Positions 7,153 through 16,217 of a stretch of 64,000 nucleotides of DNA are shown here, piece by piece. This DNA is from Phyllobacterium myrsinacearum. Its GTDB lineage: Bacteria > Pseudomonadota > Alphaproteobacteria > Rhizobiales > Rhizobiaceae. A program made the position numbers and the translations under genes. How positions within the stretch are numbered: the stretch's first letter is position 1; every line of letters begins with the position of its first letter. The notes under the pieces were generated by a model. That model worked only from the letters and a program-made list of their open reading frames with translations. It was not told the origin of the DNA and made no database searches. The stretch is from contig NZ_PVBT01000009.1 in assembly GCF_002980555.1 (NCBI RefSeq), positions 1 to 64,000 on the forward strand, in the 5' to 3' direction.

Positions 7153-8271
7153 TTACTTTTCGAAGTAGGTGGGTTTCCCATCGTTCCCTTTTTTCCACTC
7201 GTATATGATATAATCCGGTCGCGTGATGTCGCCCTTTGAATCGAAGCTGATGTCACCGATGGCGGTTGACACTGGACCGTTCGCTTTGATGGTATCTGCC
7301 ACTTTCTGAGCATCGGTTGCGGAACCGCTCTTGGCAATGGCGGACGCGAGAATCTGAACCGCAGCGTAAGAGTAGAGAGTATACGCTTCCGGCTCAAAGC
7401 CAGCGGCGTGAAACTTCTCGACAATATCGTGGGCGGCTGGATTCTTCCGTGGGTCTGGCGCGAAGGTGTTAAGTGTGCCGATTACAGCGTCACCCGCGAT
7501 AGAAGCGAGTTCACTCGACACCATACCGTCACCCGAGAACAGCGTTGCCTTCAGACCTTGGTCCGCAGACTGCCTCATGATCAGGCCAGCCTCGGTATGT
7601 AGGCCACCGAAGTAGATTAATGTAACACCGGCCTTCTTCATCTTGGCTATGAGGGCCGAGAAGTCTTTGTCGCCGATAAGGATGCCTTCATATACTACCT
7701 CGGTCAGACCACTAGCATTTAGTACCTTTTTTGCTACATCTACGAGACCTTGGCCATATGGTGTCCTGTCATGAATAATGGCAATCTTGGCATTTTTGAA
7801 GTTGGCAGCAATATACTCACCAGCGACCTTTCCCTGCTGATCGTCGCGCCCGCAGGTGCGAAATGTGTTCCACAAGCCGCGTTCGGTATACTGCGGGTTG
7901 GTTGACGCCGGTGTAATCTCAAGCACACCATTCTCGGCATAAACTTCCGAAGCCGGAATTGAGACACCAGAGTTGAAGTGCCCAACTACGAACTTGACGC
8001 CATCTGCGACGAACTTGTTGGCAACTGAGATGCCCTGCTTTGGATCGGAGACATCATCCCCGACCACTATCTTTATCTGCTGGCCGAGGACGCCGCCGAT
8101 GGCATTAATATCAGCCGCAGCGCGTTCGGCACCCTTTTGGAATTGTGCGCCAAACGCGGCATTCGGACCAGTAATTGGTCCGGCAACCCCGATCAGGATA
8201 TCAGCATTCGCGTGGCCACCGAGTGCGACTAGCGCGGTAACGGCAACGACTGACAAAAGTGACTTTTTCAT
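7153..8271 (-). CDS. Branched-chain amino acid-type periplasmic binding protein
   Basis: The protein has 372 residues. It opens with a signal peptide ([19 protein letters not shown], cleaved after HANA) and continues with [19 protein letters not shown], the LivJ/LivK-type type I periplasmic binding fold. [31 protein letters not shown] and the late DGKPTYF end fit the family. It is the last gene of the operon, 111 bases after the ligase, with no permease or ATPase genes in the window. It presumably delivers the pathway substrate to a LivHMGF-type transporter encoded elsewhere. A branched or dialkyl amino acid is the likely ligand, inferred from the operon. Confidence 0.85.
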
Positions 8272-8382
8272 TTAACGTTCCCATTTATATTGTGGGCGTT
8301 CGATGGTGCTTTCGTGCGGTGCCCACTTATCACGCAAAAAGCAAACTGATCGGCTCCTATCACATCGGGATATTTGAGTGTG

Positions 8383-10017
8383 CTATCTGTCGCCTCGATC
8401 GAAGGTCGCGTGGCTTACACCTCGTTGTTTCAACGCGCTTCGAGCGATCTTTTCAGTTGGGGTTCTTGGAAGCGGCGTGTCGGTGATTTCGATGTAGCGC
8501 GGAATCATATGTCGGGGTGCCGACTCTCTGAAATGGCTGAGTAAGTCTGAAGGTTGTACCGGGGATCCCGCTCTGCGCATCGCGACAACCATGATGTCCT
8601 CTTCAGTGAATTCCGACGGAATACCGAAGGCGACGCTTTCCACTATGTCCGGATGTTTCTCAGCAACGGATTCTACTTCATAGGCGGAAATGTTCTCGCC
8701 CCGACGCCGGATAGCCTCGTCTAGACGATGCCTGAAATACAGCCATCCTTCTTCGTCCATGAAGCCAGCATCACCGGAGTGGTACCAAAGGTTTCTGAGC
8801 GTCTGTACAGTCTTTGAATCGGACCGGTAGTAGCCCGAAAACATGCTCCAGCTCTTTTTCGGACGTGACACGATCTCGCCAACGATGCCGGGCGGGAGGC
8901 GTCCGTCCGTTTCATCCATTATTGCGACTTCCCAGTCAGGATGGATTCGGCCGCACGAGCCCGGCCGCGTTTCGTCTGCTGTGTCTAAGGTCACAAAACT
9001 GGTTTCCGTCTGCCCGTAACCGGTAACGAGTCGAATGCCGAAACGCTGTTCGAACACTTCCTTATCCGGCGCCATAGGAATGCATTGGCATATCCTGACC
9101 GGATTTTGGCTATCGTTTTCAGACTCCGGCATCCGCATGAGAATGACTGCCATGGCACCCAGCAAATTTGTGGCGGACGCGCCGCTCGCGCGGACTTGAT
9201 CCCAAAATCTGGATGCGCTGAAGCCATCCACTAAAGTTGCGCTAGTGCCGTATATGAGTGGCATGTAGACGCCGAACATCTGGGCATCGGTGTGGAACAG
9301 CGGCAAAGCCGAGAAATAGCTATCGCTGGTCGTGTAACCCAAATTGCACGCCATCGCCGCGACCCAGGAATAGCAATGGTGGTGAGACATCAACGCGCCT
9401 TTGGCCGGGCCAGTTGTGCCGGACGTGTATAAGATTGCCATCGGATCCGAGTAGTGGATGTCAACCAAGTCGAAGTCCAACTGCGGTGCCAAACATTCGT
9501 CGAAAGCCACAATCCGATCGATCTTGATGCCGGCGGCACGACCTTCTTTCGGATCAGCTCCGACGAGAACAAGGGTCCGGATACCGGACAATCTGTCCTG
9601 CACCTTGGCGATTTCCGTCAGTGCAGCTGCGTCAATTACAAGCACTTCGGCTCCGCAATTGTTCAGGTTATGACACAGCAGGTCGCCTTTCAGACCGGGA
9701 TTGTTCGGCACTTCGATTGCACCCAACTTTGATACTGCGAACCATGTCGCGACGAATTCGAAGCAATTGGGCAGAAGTATTGCTACTCGATCCAGCCGGG
9801 TTACGCCCAGTTTGCGAAAACCATGAGCCAGTTGGTTAGAGATCAACAGCATCTCCTCAAAACTGGCCGAACGCCCGCATACTTCGATAAATTTCTTGCT
9901 GCCGAACTGTTCGGCCTGCCTCAGCAGGATCTTCGGCAGCACCCGGCTCTCAATATCGATTTCATCTTTACCGGGAATATAAAACTGAGGAGAAACTTCA
10001 CTGGTTGTCACGAACAT
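8383..10017 (-). CDS. Acyl-CoA synthetase/ligase of the AMP-forming family
   Basis: The adenylate-forming P-loop is ILYTSGTTGPAKGALMSHHH, followed by VTGYGQTETS (core motif) and the hinge region YFRHRLDEAIRRRGENIS. The C-terminal LPRTPTEKIAR holds the catalytic Lys. The overall length of about 544 residues matches CaiC-like and 2-hydroxyisobutyrate-CoA ligase-like enzymes. ATG 10017 is preceded by AGAAGG and starts three bases after the hydratase stop. It should activate the pathway carboxylic acid as its CoA thioester for the B12 mutase encoded upstream. Substrate identity is inferred from context only. Confidence 0.85.
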   Translation of the reverse strand: MFVTTSEVSPQFYIPGKDEIDIESRVLPKILLRQAEQFGSKKFIEVCGRSASFEEMLLISNQLAHGFRKLGVTRLDRVAILLPNCFEFVATWFAVSKLGAIEVPNNPGLKGDLLCHNLNNCGAEVLVIDAAALTEIAKVQDRLSGIRTLVLVGADPKEGRAAGIKIDRIVAFDECLAPQLDFDLVDIHYSDPMAILYTSGTTGPAKGALMSHHHCYSWVAAMACNLGYTTSDSYFSALPLFHTDAQMFGVYMPLIYGTSATLVDGFSASRFWDQVRASGASATNLLGAMAVILMRMPESENDSQNPVRICQCIPMAPDKEVFEQRFGIRLVTGYGQTETSFVTLDTADETRPGSCGRIHPDWEVAIMDETDGRLPPGIVGEIVSRPKKSWSMFSGYYRSDSKTVQTLRNLWYHSGDAGFMDEEGWLYFRHRLDEAIRRRGENISAYEVESVAEKHPDIVESVAFGIPSEFTEEDIMVVAMRRAGSPVQPSDLLSHFRESAPRHMIPRYIEITDTPLPRTPTEKIARSALKQRGVSHATFDRGDR

Positions 10018-10019
10018 GG

Positions 10020-15263: not shown

Positions 15264-15339
15264 CAATCCGCTCCATGCCTTCTAAAAGACAATTAGCGGC
15301 TGGCGCTATTCCAGTAAAATTGATAATATTCGGATTGAG

Positions 15340-15358
15340 ATATCAATGGAATTGATAT
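15340..15358. promoter_or_regulatory. LysR-type palindrome between dgdA and lysR
   Basis: ATATCAAT (15340-15347) and ATTGATAT (15351-15358) form a perfect 8-bp inverted repeat with a 3-base centre, overlapping the lysR ATG at 15357. A weaker related half, AATTGATAAT, lies at 15319-15328. The spacing of T and A residues fits a T-N11-A LysR box. The 93-base divergent region suggests the regulator represses itself and activates dgdA. Confidence 0.65.
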
Positions 15359-16217
15359 GAAGCCACCGCTTGACCTTCGTCTGCTCCGCACATTTGTCCA
15401 GGCCGTACGTTCAGGCTCACTTAGCGCGGCAGCAGTCCAAGTCGGTAGGACACAATCTGCCGTGACAATGCAGATGCAGCGGTTGGAAGAGATAGTCGGC
15501 CACGATCTCCTGCACCGAGGTGGAACTGGAGTCCGGCTCACCGGCAACGGAGAGCGCTTTCTTGAATATGCCCAGCGTATTCTGAGCATTCATGATGAAG
15601 CCATCACTGCGTTTTCAAGTGATGGTTTACGAGGGTCCATCGTTTTCGGCTGTCCGGAAGATTATCTGATTTCGACATTTCCATCGCTACTGCAGAGCTT
15701 TGGCAACATGCATCCAGAGGTGGAAATCAAGGTTGTCGCTGCGCCAACCGACCAACTTCGAAAGCTTCTGCATGCTAAGCAAGTGGATCTCGCACTTGTG
15801 TCCGCTTCGACCTGGAGCACCTCCGACAATGTCGTCTGGACAGAGGCTCTGGTTTGGGTCGGAAGACAGCCGTCTTTTGAACTTTATAATTTTGGCGATA
15901 CGATACCGCTTGCATTGTCTGCATCTGATACAATGGACCATAAAGCCGCTTGCGAAGCCATGTTGCGCGCGCGGCTGCGATACCAGATATCATATGCCAG
16001 CAACAGCCTTGCCGGATTGGTTGCCGTTGCACGTTCTGGTCTGGCCATCAGCGTTATGACTAAGCAAGCTGTCCCATCAGACTTGTATATTCTCGGCAGC
16101 CCACTGCCGCCGCTCCCCCGCCTTGGTGTTTTGATCACTTTTGCAGAGTCCGTCCAATCTCCCATAGCAAAAGCTTTCGGTGAGCATATCCGTAAAGTCT
16201 TGAATCGGTTGACCTAG
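15357..16217 (+). CDS. LysR-family regulator of the dialkyl-acid operon
   Basis: The 286-residue protein has the N-terminal LysR winged HTH (LRLLRTFVQAVRSGSLSAAA, with TQSAVTMQMQRLEE) and a C-terminal ligand-sensing domain from residue about 90. It is divergently transcribed from dgdA, with the palindromic site in between. It probably senses a pathway substrate or CoA-free acid. GRTQSAVTMQMQRLE is more like the CbbR/ArgP-type HTH than the three paralogous LysR proteins at the end of the window. Confidence 0.88.
   Translation: MKPPLDLRLLRTFVQAVRSGSLSAAAVQVGRTQSAVTMQMQRLEEIVGHDLLHRGGTGVRLTGNGERFLEYAQRILSIHDEAITAFSSDGLRGSIVFGCPEDYLISTFPSLLQSFGNMHPEVEIKVVAAPTDQLRKLLHAKQVDLALVSASTWSTSDNVVWTEALVWVGRQPSFELYNFGDTIPLALSASDTMDHKAACEAMLRARLRYQISYASNSLAGLVAVARSGLAISVMTKQAVPSDLYILGSPLPPLPRLGVLITFAESVQSPIAKAFGEHIRKVLNRLT

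Follow-up and report, generated by a model that had tools for sequence, protein, structure and literature searches.

The DNA studied here is a stretch of 64,000 nucleotides from Phyllobacterium myrsinacearum (contig NZ_PVBT01000009.1, positions 1 to 64,000; hereafter the window), and the element in question is a candidate catabolic operon at positions 7153-16217. A divergent LysR gene faces a same-direction run of dgdA, mutS, meaB, mutL and the genes of a crotonase, an acyl-CoA ligase and an amino-acid binding protein. These eight genes and their directions had been proposed in an earlier note on this DNA. All eight open reading frames (ORFs) are present at the coordinates given in Table 1, and Pfam, NCBIfam and PDB sequence searches assigned a family to each protein (class III aminotransferase, B12-binding, MeaB, MM_CoA_mutase, crotonase, AMP-binding ligase, periplasmic binding protein and LysR), which confirms both the genes and their directions.

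The tight spacing reported in the same note can be read off the sequence. DgdA and mutS are separated by 16 bases, mutS/meaB and meaB/mutL overlap by 4 bases each, and 111 bases lie between the ligase gene and that of the binding protein; LysR and dgdA diverge from each other about 90 bases apart. The mutL-crotonase gap is 10 bases when the crotonase starts at the ATG at 10769, whereas the listed TTG start gives an 8-base overlap; the ATG, which is preceded by AGGAGG, is the more likely start. The crotonase and ligase genes overlap by 4 bases with the ligase TTG start, or lie 2 bases apart if the ATG at 10017 is used. The terminator claimed behind the last gene is only partly confirmed: positions 7126-7106 form a GC-rich hairpin with at least 8 perfectly matched base pairs (-19 kcal/mol, z -4.3), but it has no T-run and is absent from the list of the terminator scan.

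Table 1. Genes and other elements of the operon region, with positions in the window
Feature	Position	Strand	Remarks
LysR-type regulator, DgdR-like, divergent from dgdA	15357..16217	+	PF00126/PF03466
LysR-dgdA intergenic promoter/operator region with TATCAAWTTTAC box and ATATC arm	15267..15356		box at 15325-15314 on - strand
dgdA, predicted 2,2-dialkylglycine decarboxylase	13926..15266	-	TTG start 15266, ATG 15263 alternative
mutS, B12-binding small subunit of acyl-CoA mutase, HcmB-like	13463..13909	-	PF02310; 4r3u_C
meaB, mutase-associated GTPase	12477..13466	-	TIGR00750, 317 bits vs cut-off 240.75
mutL, acyl-CoA mutase large subunit, HcmA-like, with Val90, Asp117, Gln208	10780..12480	-	4r3u_A
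Crotonase-family hydratase	10020..10769	-	PF00378; ATG start 10769, TTG 10787 alternative
AMP-forming acyl-CoA ligase, nearest NCBIfam PRK06155, not HCL	8383..10023	-	NF004808, below cut-off
Periplasmic amino-acid binding protein	7153..8271	-	562 bits to PDB 3ip5
GC-rich perfect hairpin, possible terminator without T-run	7106..7126	-	-19 kcal/mol, z -4.3

Conservation of the gene order

Related loci were collected by a scan with the mutase large subunit, one genome per species, which yielded 78 loci from the best 80 of 84 matching stretches. A mutase identity of 76% or more over the best segment sets 31 of the 78 apart; these are termed close loci, and the remaining 47 were used for comparison. 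The order LysR<>dgdA-mutS-meaB-mutL-crotonase-ligase, hereafter the cassette, is kept in 30 of the 31 close loci and in 0 of the 47 others, which rules out a chance neighbourhood and answers the suggestion of the earlier note that the same order be sought elsewhere. The sole exception, L026 of Peristeroidobacter soli, has only mutS-meaB-mutL. No dgdA match above 32% identity was found in the fetched stretches of the other 47 loci, and HCL, the ligase of 2-hydroxyisobutyrate catabolism, occurs in 39 of these 47 versus none of the 31 close loci. A simple gene caller placed wrong-strand calls on L013, L035 and L036, and those calls were excluded.

The 30 cassette loci span 11 named alpha-proteobacterial genera (Aminobacter, Mesorhizobium, Labrys, Sinorhizobium, Pseudaminobacter, Rhizobium, Shinella, Brucella/Ochrobactrum, Hoeflea, Pseudogemmobacter and Roseovarius) plus further Rhizobiales. 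Every cassette gene is under purifying selection, with a ratio of nonsynonymous to synonymous differences (pN/pS) of 0.08-0.33 relative to L007, L008, L013 and L032 (for the binding protein, matched in three of these four). The spread is patchy: a mutase at 88% identity or more is found in 4 of 249 drawn genomes of the order to which the window belongs, its own included, and one further genome among them has a mutase at 58%. Mutases at 80-90% identity lie on 20 plasmid records of Sinorhizobium and Shinella. The operon is present in all four annotated plasmid records examined; two of their gene tables are incomplete and miss one or two of its genes (dgdA in one and mutL in the other, for example), whose sequences were recovered by protein searches. 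Three loci carry irregularities. On the metagenome contig L015, where the ligase gene is cut, two mirrored, inverted copies of the cassette are seen, probably an assembly artefact, and in L033 and L084 the frames of several cassette genes are broken, through assembly errors or decay.

The decarboxylase, its regulator and the binding protein

DgdA matches the solved dialkylglycine decarboxylase (PDB 1d7r) with 660 bits over residues 2-432, while the next family reaches 225 bits. The active-site residues of this enzyme, given in the accessible part of PMC10169451 as Q52, W138, M141, S215, K272 and R406, are all kept in the alignment. By sequence and active site the cassette DgdA is thus assigned as a dialkylglycine decarboxylase, and the match and the six residues support the identity put forward in the earlier note. 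In the DgdA tree the cassette proteins (33 rows) form one clade with support 100/96, apart from seven stand-alone DgdAs. Nine positions differ consistently between the two groups. Near W138, position 135 is Ser in 32 of 33 cassette rows and Ala in all seven stand-alone ones, and position 136 is Lys in 30 of 33 and Gln in 7 of 7; position 275, two residues from the lysine that binds pyridoxal phosphate, is Ile in all 33 cassette rows and Leu or Val in the seven others.

A divergent LysR-type regulator, dgdR, reportedly lies beside dgdA in Burkholderia cepacia. All seven stand-alone dgdA genes likewise have a divergent LysR gene, whose product is 47-50% identical to that of the window; it also appears in the annotation of stand-alone loci L102, L105 and L107. 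In the LysR-dgdA intergenic region of the cassette, a pair of elements, ATATC and TATCAAWTTTAC, is conserved in 21 aligned rows. The TATCAAWTTTAC box lies at this site in 29 of 30 cassette loci, and the only further copy within those stretches is the mirrored one of L015; the box of L013 deviates by one base. There are two sites in the whole genome of the window, the second on contig C1, close to the start of a 394-aa ORF of no assigned identity. The strict pattern is found in none of the seven stand-alone dgdA loci. Comparison by eye, which covered five of the seven (all except L135 and L136), revealed a similar operator core at the four rhizobial copies (L102, L105, L134 and L137), and none was seen at the Caballeronia copy (L107). 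Given that stand-alone dgdA genes have a homologous LysR gene and, at the four rhizobial copies, an operator core that looks similar, a regulated dgdA was probably present first and the mutase genes joined it later.

The binding protein scores 562 bits against the protein of PDB entries 3ip5-3ipc, which we take to be Atu2422 of Agrobacterium, a binder of small amino acids and gamma-aminobutyric acid, and 347 bits against 4n0q. The leucine binder 1usg and the Leu/Ile/Val binder 1z15 reach 264 and 254 bits. By these scores it is close to a solved amino-acid binder. A relative lies within the fetched stretch of 27 of the 30 cassette loci, being only 49-53% identical in L012, L029 and L030.

The mutase and its partner enzymes

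MutL scores 718 bits against HcmA (PDB 4r3u_A) versus 455 bits against methylmalonyl-CoA mutase (MCM), and is 58% identical to HcmA of Methylibium petroleiphilum PM1; the best PDB match of MutS is HcmB (4r3u_C, 140 bits). The large and small subunits are encoded by separate genes, accompanied by a MeaB-type GTPase. A MutL tree was calculated from 77 rows, with one MCM row and no isobutyryl-CoA mutase row, and without the truncated or broken rows L033, L065, L075, L083 and L084. The cassette proteins form a clade with support 100/100 in which L026 is nested; its sister is L035/L073, followed by PM1, Agrobacterium deltaense and L041. From this tree the cassette mutase is placed within the 2-hydroxyisobutyryl-CoA mutase (HCM) family and apart from MCM.

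Residues are numbered as in HcmA, with the PM1 protein as stand-in. All 29 cassette rows carry Asp117 and Gln208, and all 29 have Val at position 90. Of 41 other rows, 39 have Ile there, L035 and L073 being the exceptions (this comparison group further leaves out L026, L041, L069, L074, L077, L078 and the MCM row). MCM carries Tyr, Ala and Arg at positions 90, 117 and 208, versus Val, Asp and Gln in the cassette. Asp117 is presumably the hydroxyl-recognition residue that orients the substrate hydroxyl, and Ile is what we would expect in an HCM at position 90; the Ile90Val variant of HcmA is said to stay active. As Val replaces Ile at this position, the enzyme is classed as HCM-like rather than as HCM. 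Score, tree and pocket residues agree with the earlier view of a mutase of the 2-hydroxyisobutyryl-CoA type and lead us to reject an ordinary MCM. Pivalate is an unlikely substrate since Asp117 is kept.

Val90 is also found in the mutases of L145 and L026, and sequence comparison delineates a distinct Val90 subtype. Val90 and a crotonase gene directly after mutL co-occur in all cassette rows and in L035, L073 and L145, and no crotonase match was found directly after mutL at any Ile90 locus (tblastn, E 1e-12). Since the rows may share ancestry, this association is likely to reflect one event rather than many. The operons of L035, L073 and L145 contain HCL as well as the crotonase, those of L073 and L145 also a short-chain dehydrogenase/reductase (SDR). 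L026 has a 3-hydroxyacyl-CoA dehydrogenase gene instead of the crotonase, and adjoins a 2-hydroxyacyl-CoA lyase gene (658 bits versus a cut-off of 600). The occurrence of Val90 beside HCL in three loci and beside the lyase in L026 favours a 2-hydroxyacyl-CoA as substrate.

Two of these Val90 loci have surroundings of their own. In L026 (1-21692) the cassette-clade mutase, the lyase and the dehydrogenase are accompanied by S8, S9, M19 and M20 peptidases, and a peptide-derived substrate is possible there. L145 (1-19001), from the same order as the window, has an HCL-mutase(Val90)-crotonase operon with a RidA-family gene and a cytochrome P450 with reductases; it adjoins a glutamine-synthetase-like gene and livG/livF-like genes, these under the NCBIfam cut-offs. 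A possible role of this cluster is the oxidation of a tertiary alkyl amine by way of a gamma-glutamyl amide.

The ligase scores 472 bits against NF004808 (PRK06155), under the cut-off of 722, and has no significant similarity to HCL (BLASTP E 0.15 to PM1 HCL). Its domains are AMP-binding and AMP-binding_C, whereas the HCL of L073 has AMP-binding_C_2; its catalytic motifs are kept in at least 27 of 28 loci. The note had read the ligase, split mutase and MeaB as the gene set of 2-hydroxyisobutyrate catabolism: this holds for the mutase and MeaB but not for the ligase, and because of that dissimilarity the set is not simply the 2-hydroxyisobutyrate pathway. At least 29 of the 30 loci compared keep two crotonase glutamates, which we assume to align with the catalytic ones. 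The crotonase belongs integrally to the operon and also follows mutL in HCL-type sister clusters. In Mycobacterium sp. NAZ190054 (L049) a second mutase with Val90, Asp117 and Gln208 adjoins a ligase and an SDR that are 39% and 58% identical to those of the S. meliloti cassette, by sequence a further, separate case in which this type of ligase goes with this type of mutase. The stretch (1-12000) holds two tandem mutase clusters, one with HCL and one with the cassette-like ligase and SDR, beside a 2-hydroxyacyl-CoA lyase.

Genes for an SDR and a thiolase are linked to the operon in 12 of the 30 cassette loci, in 11 of these 12 together with an AraC regulator. The best PDB match of the linked SDR is 3tpc, which bears a general name (511 bits); the next are 3-hydroxyacyl-CoA dehydrogenases, including type II (the HSD10 kind), at about 271 bits. 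An unlinked SDR, 58% identical, is encoded elsewhere in the genome of the window. Acyl-CoA carboxylase, MCM and epimerase genes precede the operon in Shinella L017, L023 and L072 and in two plasmid records. Some relatives thus point to a C5 substrate (isovaline or 2-hydroxy-2-methylbutyrate) beside a C4 one: a C5 acid would yield acetyl-CoA and propionyl-CoA and so require the carboxylase-mutase-epimerase set seen in Shinella.

Around the operon in the window, a small helix-turn-helix (HTH) gene and an adjoining 94-aa ORF lie just past it (5862-6528) in an antitoxin-toxin-like arrangement, of which only the HTH product had a Pfam match, slightly under cut-off. A nucleotidyltransferase protein (NTP_transf_8) is encoded at 4504-5592, and a nucleotidyltransferase-fold gene also lies about 1.5 kb from the stand-alone dgdA of Agrobacterium fabrum (L102). 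A Tn3-family transposase gene at 44525-47494 of the same contig fits an accessory region.

Proposed function and relation to known systems

We propose, with a probability of about one half, that the cassette is an inducible accessory operon whose two parallel branches degrade small acids of the alpha,alpha-disubstituted (tertiary-carbon) kind. Its reading as a single unit for such acids, which the earlier note had suggested, is supported. The DgdR-like LysR, acting at the LysR-dgdA operator, would turn on the whole unit upon exposure to a dialkylglycine-like compound, and the binding protein would capture a small amino acid, for example 2-aminoisobutyrate or isovaline. DgdA would then convert the amino acid into a ketone, CO2 and alanine, as established for its family. 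It is on DgdA, the regulator, the operator and the binding protein that the putative amino-acid branch rests. In parallel, the ligase would turn a tertiary C4-C5 acid into its CoA thioester; a hydroxy acid is favoured here, the likeliest candidate being the same skeleton with a 2-hydroxy group. Its family and pocket suggest that the HcmAB-like mutase, together with MeaB, would shift the CoA-carbonyl group to give a 3-hydroxyacyl-CoA, which the crotonase may dehydrate or epimerise, possibly by dehydration and rehydration to the isomer accepted by the dehydrogenase. An HSD10-like dehydrogenase and a thiolase would finally release acetyl-CoA plus acetyl- or propionyl-CoA, and in Shinella the linked carboxylase-mutase-epimerase set could process the propionyl-CoA.

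Several observations weigh against this proposal. By its sequence, the ligase is not HCL. The tree program flags the join of L035/L073 with the cassette mutases as a long-branch one, possibly false. Neither an SDR nor a thiolase of the kind found in relatives is linked to the operon in the 64-kb window, and no genome-wide thiolase search was made. The carboxylase-mutase-epimerase set is linked only in Shinella, with MCM fragments near the operon in L009, so that the C5 reading draws mainly on one genus. Of 22 other cassette genomes searched, 11 have a strong match to the acetone carboxylase marker PF08882, 3 a weak one and 8 none. The marker is also absent from the genome of the window, the strong matches elsewhere serving as positive control, and acetone carboxylase as an obligatory ketone sink is thus unsupported. 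Finally, no natural source is shown to supply the amino acid and the hydroxy acid together. In the accessible parts of PMC12192607 and PMC10169451, 2-aminoisobutyrate and isovaline are described as components of fungal peptaibols; several nearby peptidases, which bear on this source, were seen only at P. soli L026. The natural source of 2-hydroxyisobutyrate for mutase-bearing bacteria is said, in the accessible part of PMC7176365, to be not yet identified. Cyanogenic glucosides (linamarin, lotaustralin) were considered as a shared source of the hydroxy acids and, through Strecker chemistry, of the amino acids because many carriers are legume symbionts and acetone cyanohydrin is discussed in the accessible part of PMC2847961. 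The gene tables of the four annotated dgdA-unit stretches, which are incomplete, list neither a nitrilase nor a beta-glucosidase, although a GH3 gene adjoins the HCL cluster of A. deltaense; this source is left as speculation.

Four other explanations were weighed. The dialkyl amino acid might itself be activated by the ligase and rearranged by the mutase, 2-aminoisobutyryl-CoA (or isovalyl-CoA) giving 3-aminobutyryl-CoA (3-aminovaleryl-CoA), from which the crotonase would release ammonia to form crotonyl-CoA (pentenoyl-CoA), with DgdA as a second outlet or overflow for the same substrate. The inducer side of the operon, namely DgdA, the DgdR-like LysR, the operator and the binding protein, speaks throughout for an amino acid, the dgdA clade has another ligase in place of HCL (found in none of its 31 loci versus 39 of the 47 others), and Asp117 could pair with the ammonium group. 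However, L026, which lies beside a 2-hydroxyacyl-CoA lyase, has the same pocket positions, only position 343 of those listed being different; Val90 is common to HCL clusters; DgdA is left without a necessary role; and we know of no 3-aminoacyl-CoA ammonia lyase of the crotonase family. We hold this route, the main alternative to our proposal, to be rather unlikely; if true, it would be an aminoacyl-CoA skeletal mutase pathway saving all carbons of 2-aminoisobutyrate. A low probability also attaches to the idea that the operon serves some other bifunctional tertiary acid, perhaps a dicarboxylic amino acid with a 2-methyl group or a larger acid derived from a peptide or nitrile. The sequence does not give the substrate of the ligase, peptidases lie near L026, and L145 has its P450 chain, RidA-family gene and glutamine-synthetase-like gene, but the mutase and DgdA are near enzymes for small substrates, and the genes common to all 30 loci include no further enzyme for a larger acid.

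A chain of the kind proposed for Desulfococcus biacutus, in which acetone or butanone from DgdA is joined to formyl-CoA by a 2-hydroxyacyl-CoA lyase dependent on thiamine diphosphate (ThDP), the resulting 2-hydroxyacyl-CoA passing to the mutase, would place both enzymes in series, and it gains from L026, which pairs a cassette-clade mutase with an over-cut-off lyase, and from a ThDP gene in the PM1 HCM cluster. The lyase family (NF058623) was searched in 26 genomes, of which 23 have the dgdA unit, that of the window included. The cut-off of 600 bits is exceeded in none of the 23 and in only 2 of the 26 (L026 and L049); the best score among the 23 is 357.7 bits in Labrys, and the genome of the window reaches 203.7. 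The genome of L026, for its part, has no DgdA orthologue (best match 37%). Ketone recapture by the known lyase family is thus largely refuted, and the serial chain as a whole appears very improbable. Least credible of all is a branched amino-acid operon that encodes a conventional methylmalonyl- or isobutyryl-CoA mutase and in which dgdA is a misnamed class III aminotransferase gene. Such aminotransferases and mutases are common, and annotated records name the two proteins as aspartate aminotransferase family and methylmalonyl-CoA mutase family, but the scores of MutL (718 bits to HcmA, 455 to MCM) and DgdA (660 versus 225 bits) and the Val, Asp and Gln of the pocket, in place of Tyr, Ala and Arg in MCM, speak against it.

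The earlier note knew of no described pathway that combines these enzymes. Our search, mostly of open-licence literature, likewise found no description of dgdA paired with a B12 mutase among the best-ranked matches, most subscription papers lying outside its scope. The operon connects an amino-acid decarboxylase and a tertiary-acid mutase under one predicted regulator and thereby makes both more tractable. Candidate substrates, an operator, a ligase and a Val90 mutase subtype can be named from it in root-nodule bacteria, in which HCM-type clusters are mentioned in general terms in the accessible part of PMC7176365, and its enzymes may serve in making or breaking branched C4-C5 building blocks.

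Among known systems, the lyase-mutase assimilation of acetone in Desulfococcus biacutus, as presented in the accessible part of PMC7176365, resembles the cassette in tying a mutase of the 2-hydroxyisobutyryl-CoA type to ketone chemistry; it differs in its lyase, none of the 23 searched dgdA-unit genomes having one over the cut-off. The stand-alone dgdA genes of Agrobacterium fabrum, Rhizobium, Ensifer, Caballeronia and Paraburkholderia share the active-site residues and the divergent LysR (7 of 7) and, in four rhizobial copies, a similar operator core, whereas the cassette dgdA heads a six- to seven-gene operon, forms its own clade and has the strict box, seen at 0 of 7 stand-alone loci. The HCL-mutase-crotonase-SDR-P450 clusters of Rhodobacter amnigenus (L073) and of L145 have Val90 and the crotonase straight after mutL in common with the cassette, and the L073 mutase belongs to the sister group, subject to the long-branch warning; unlike the cassette, they have HCL, a GntR regulator and a P450 chain, and no dgdA in the stretch. 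An operonic HCL ligase and a GntR regulator are usual for HCM clusters according to the accessible part of PMC7176365. The hcmAB-hcl-meaH operons of Aquincola tertiaricarbonis and M. petroleiphilum PM1 likewise unite a split B12 mutase, a MeaB-type GTPase and a ligase, and Asp117 and Gln208 of the PM1 HcmA, 58% identical, are kept. In the cassette, however, Val90 replaces Ile90, the ligase is unrelated to HCL, a LysR takes the place of GntR, and dgdA, a crotonase and an amino-acid binding protein are added; known enzyme families meet here in an apparently undescribed, strongly conserved combination.

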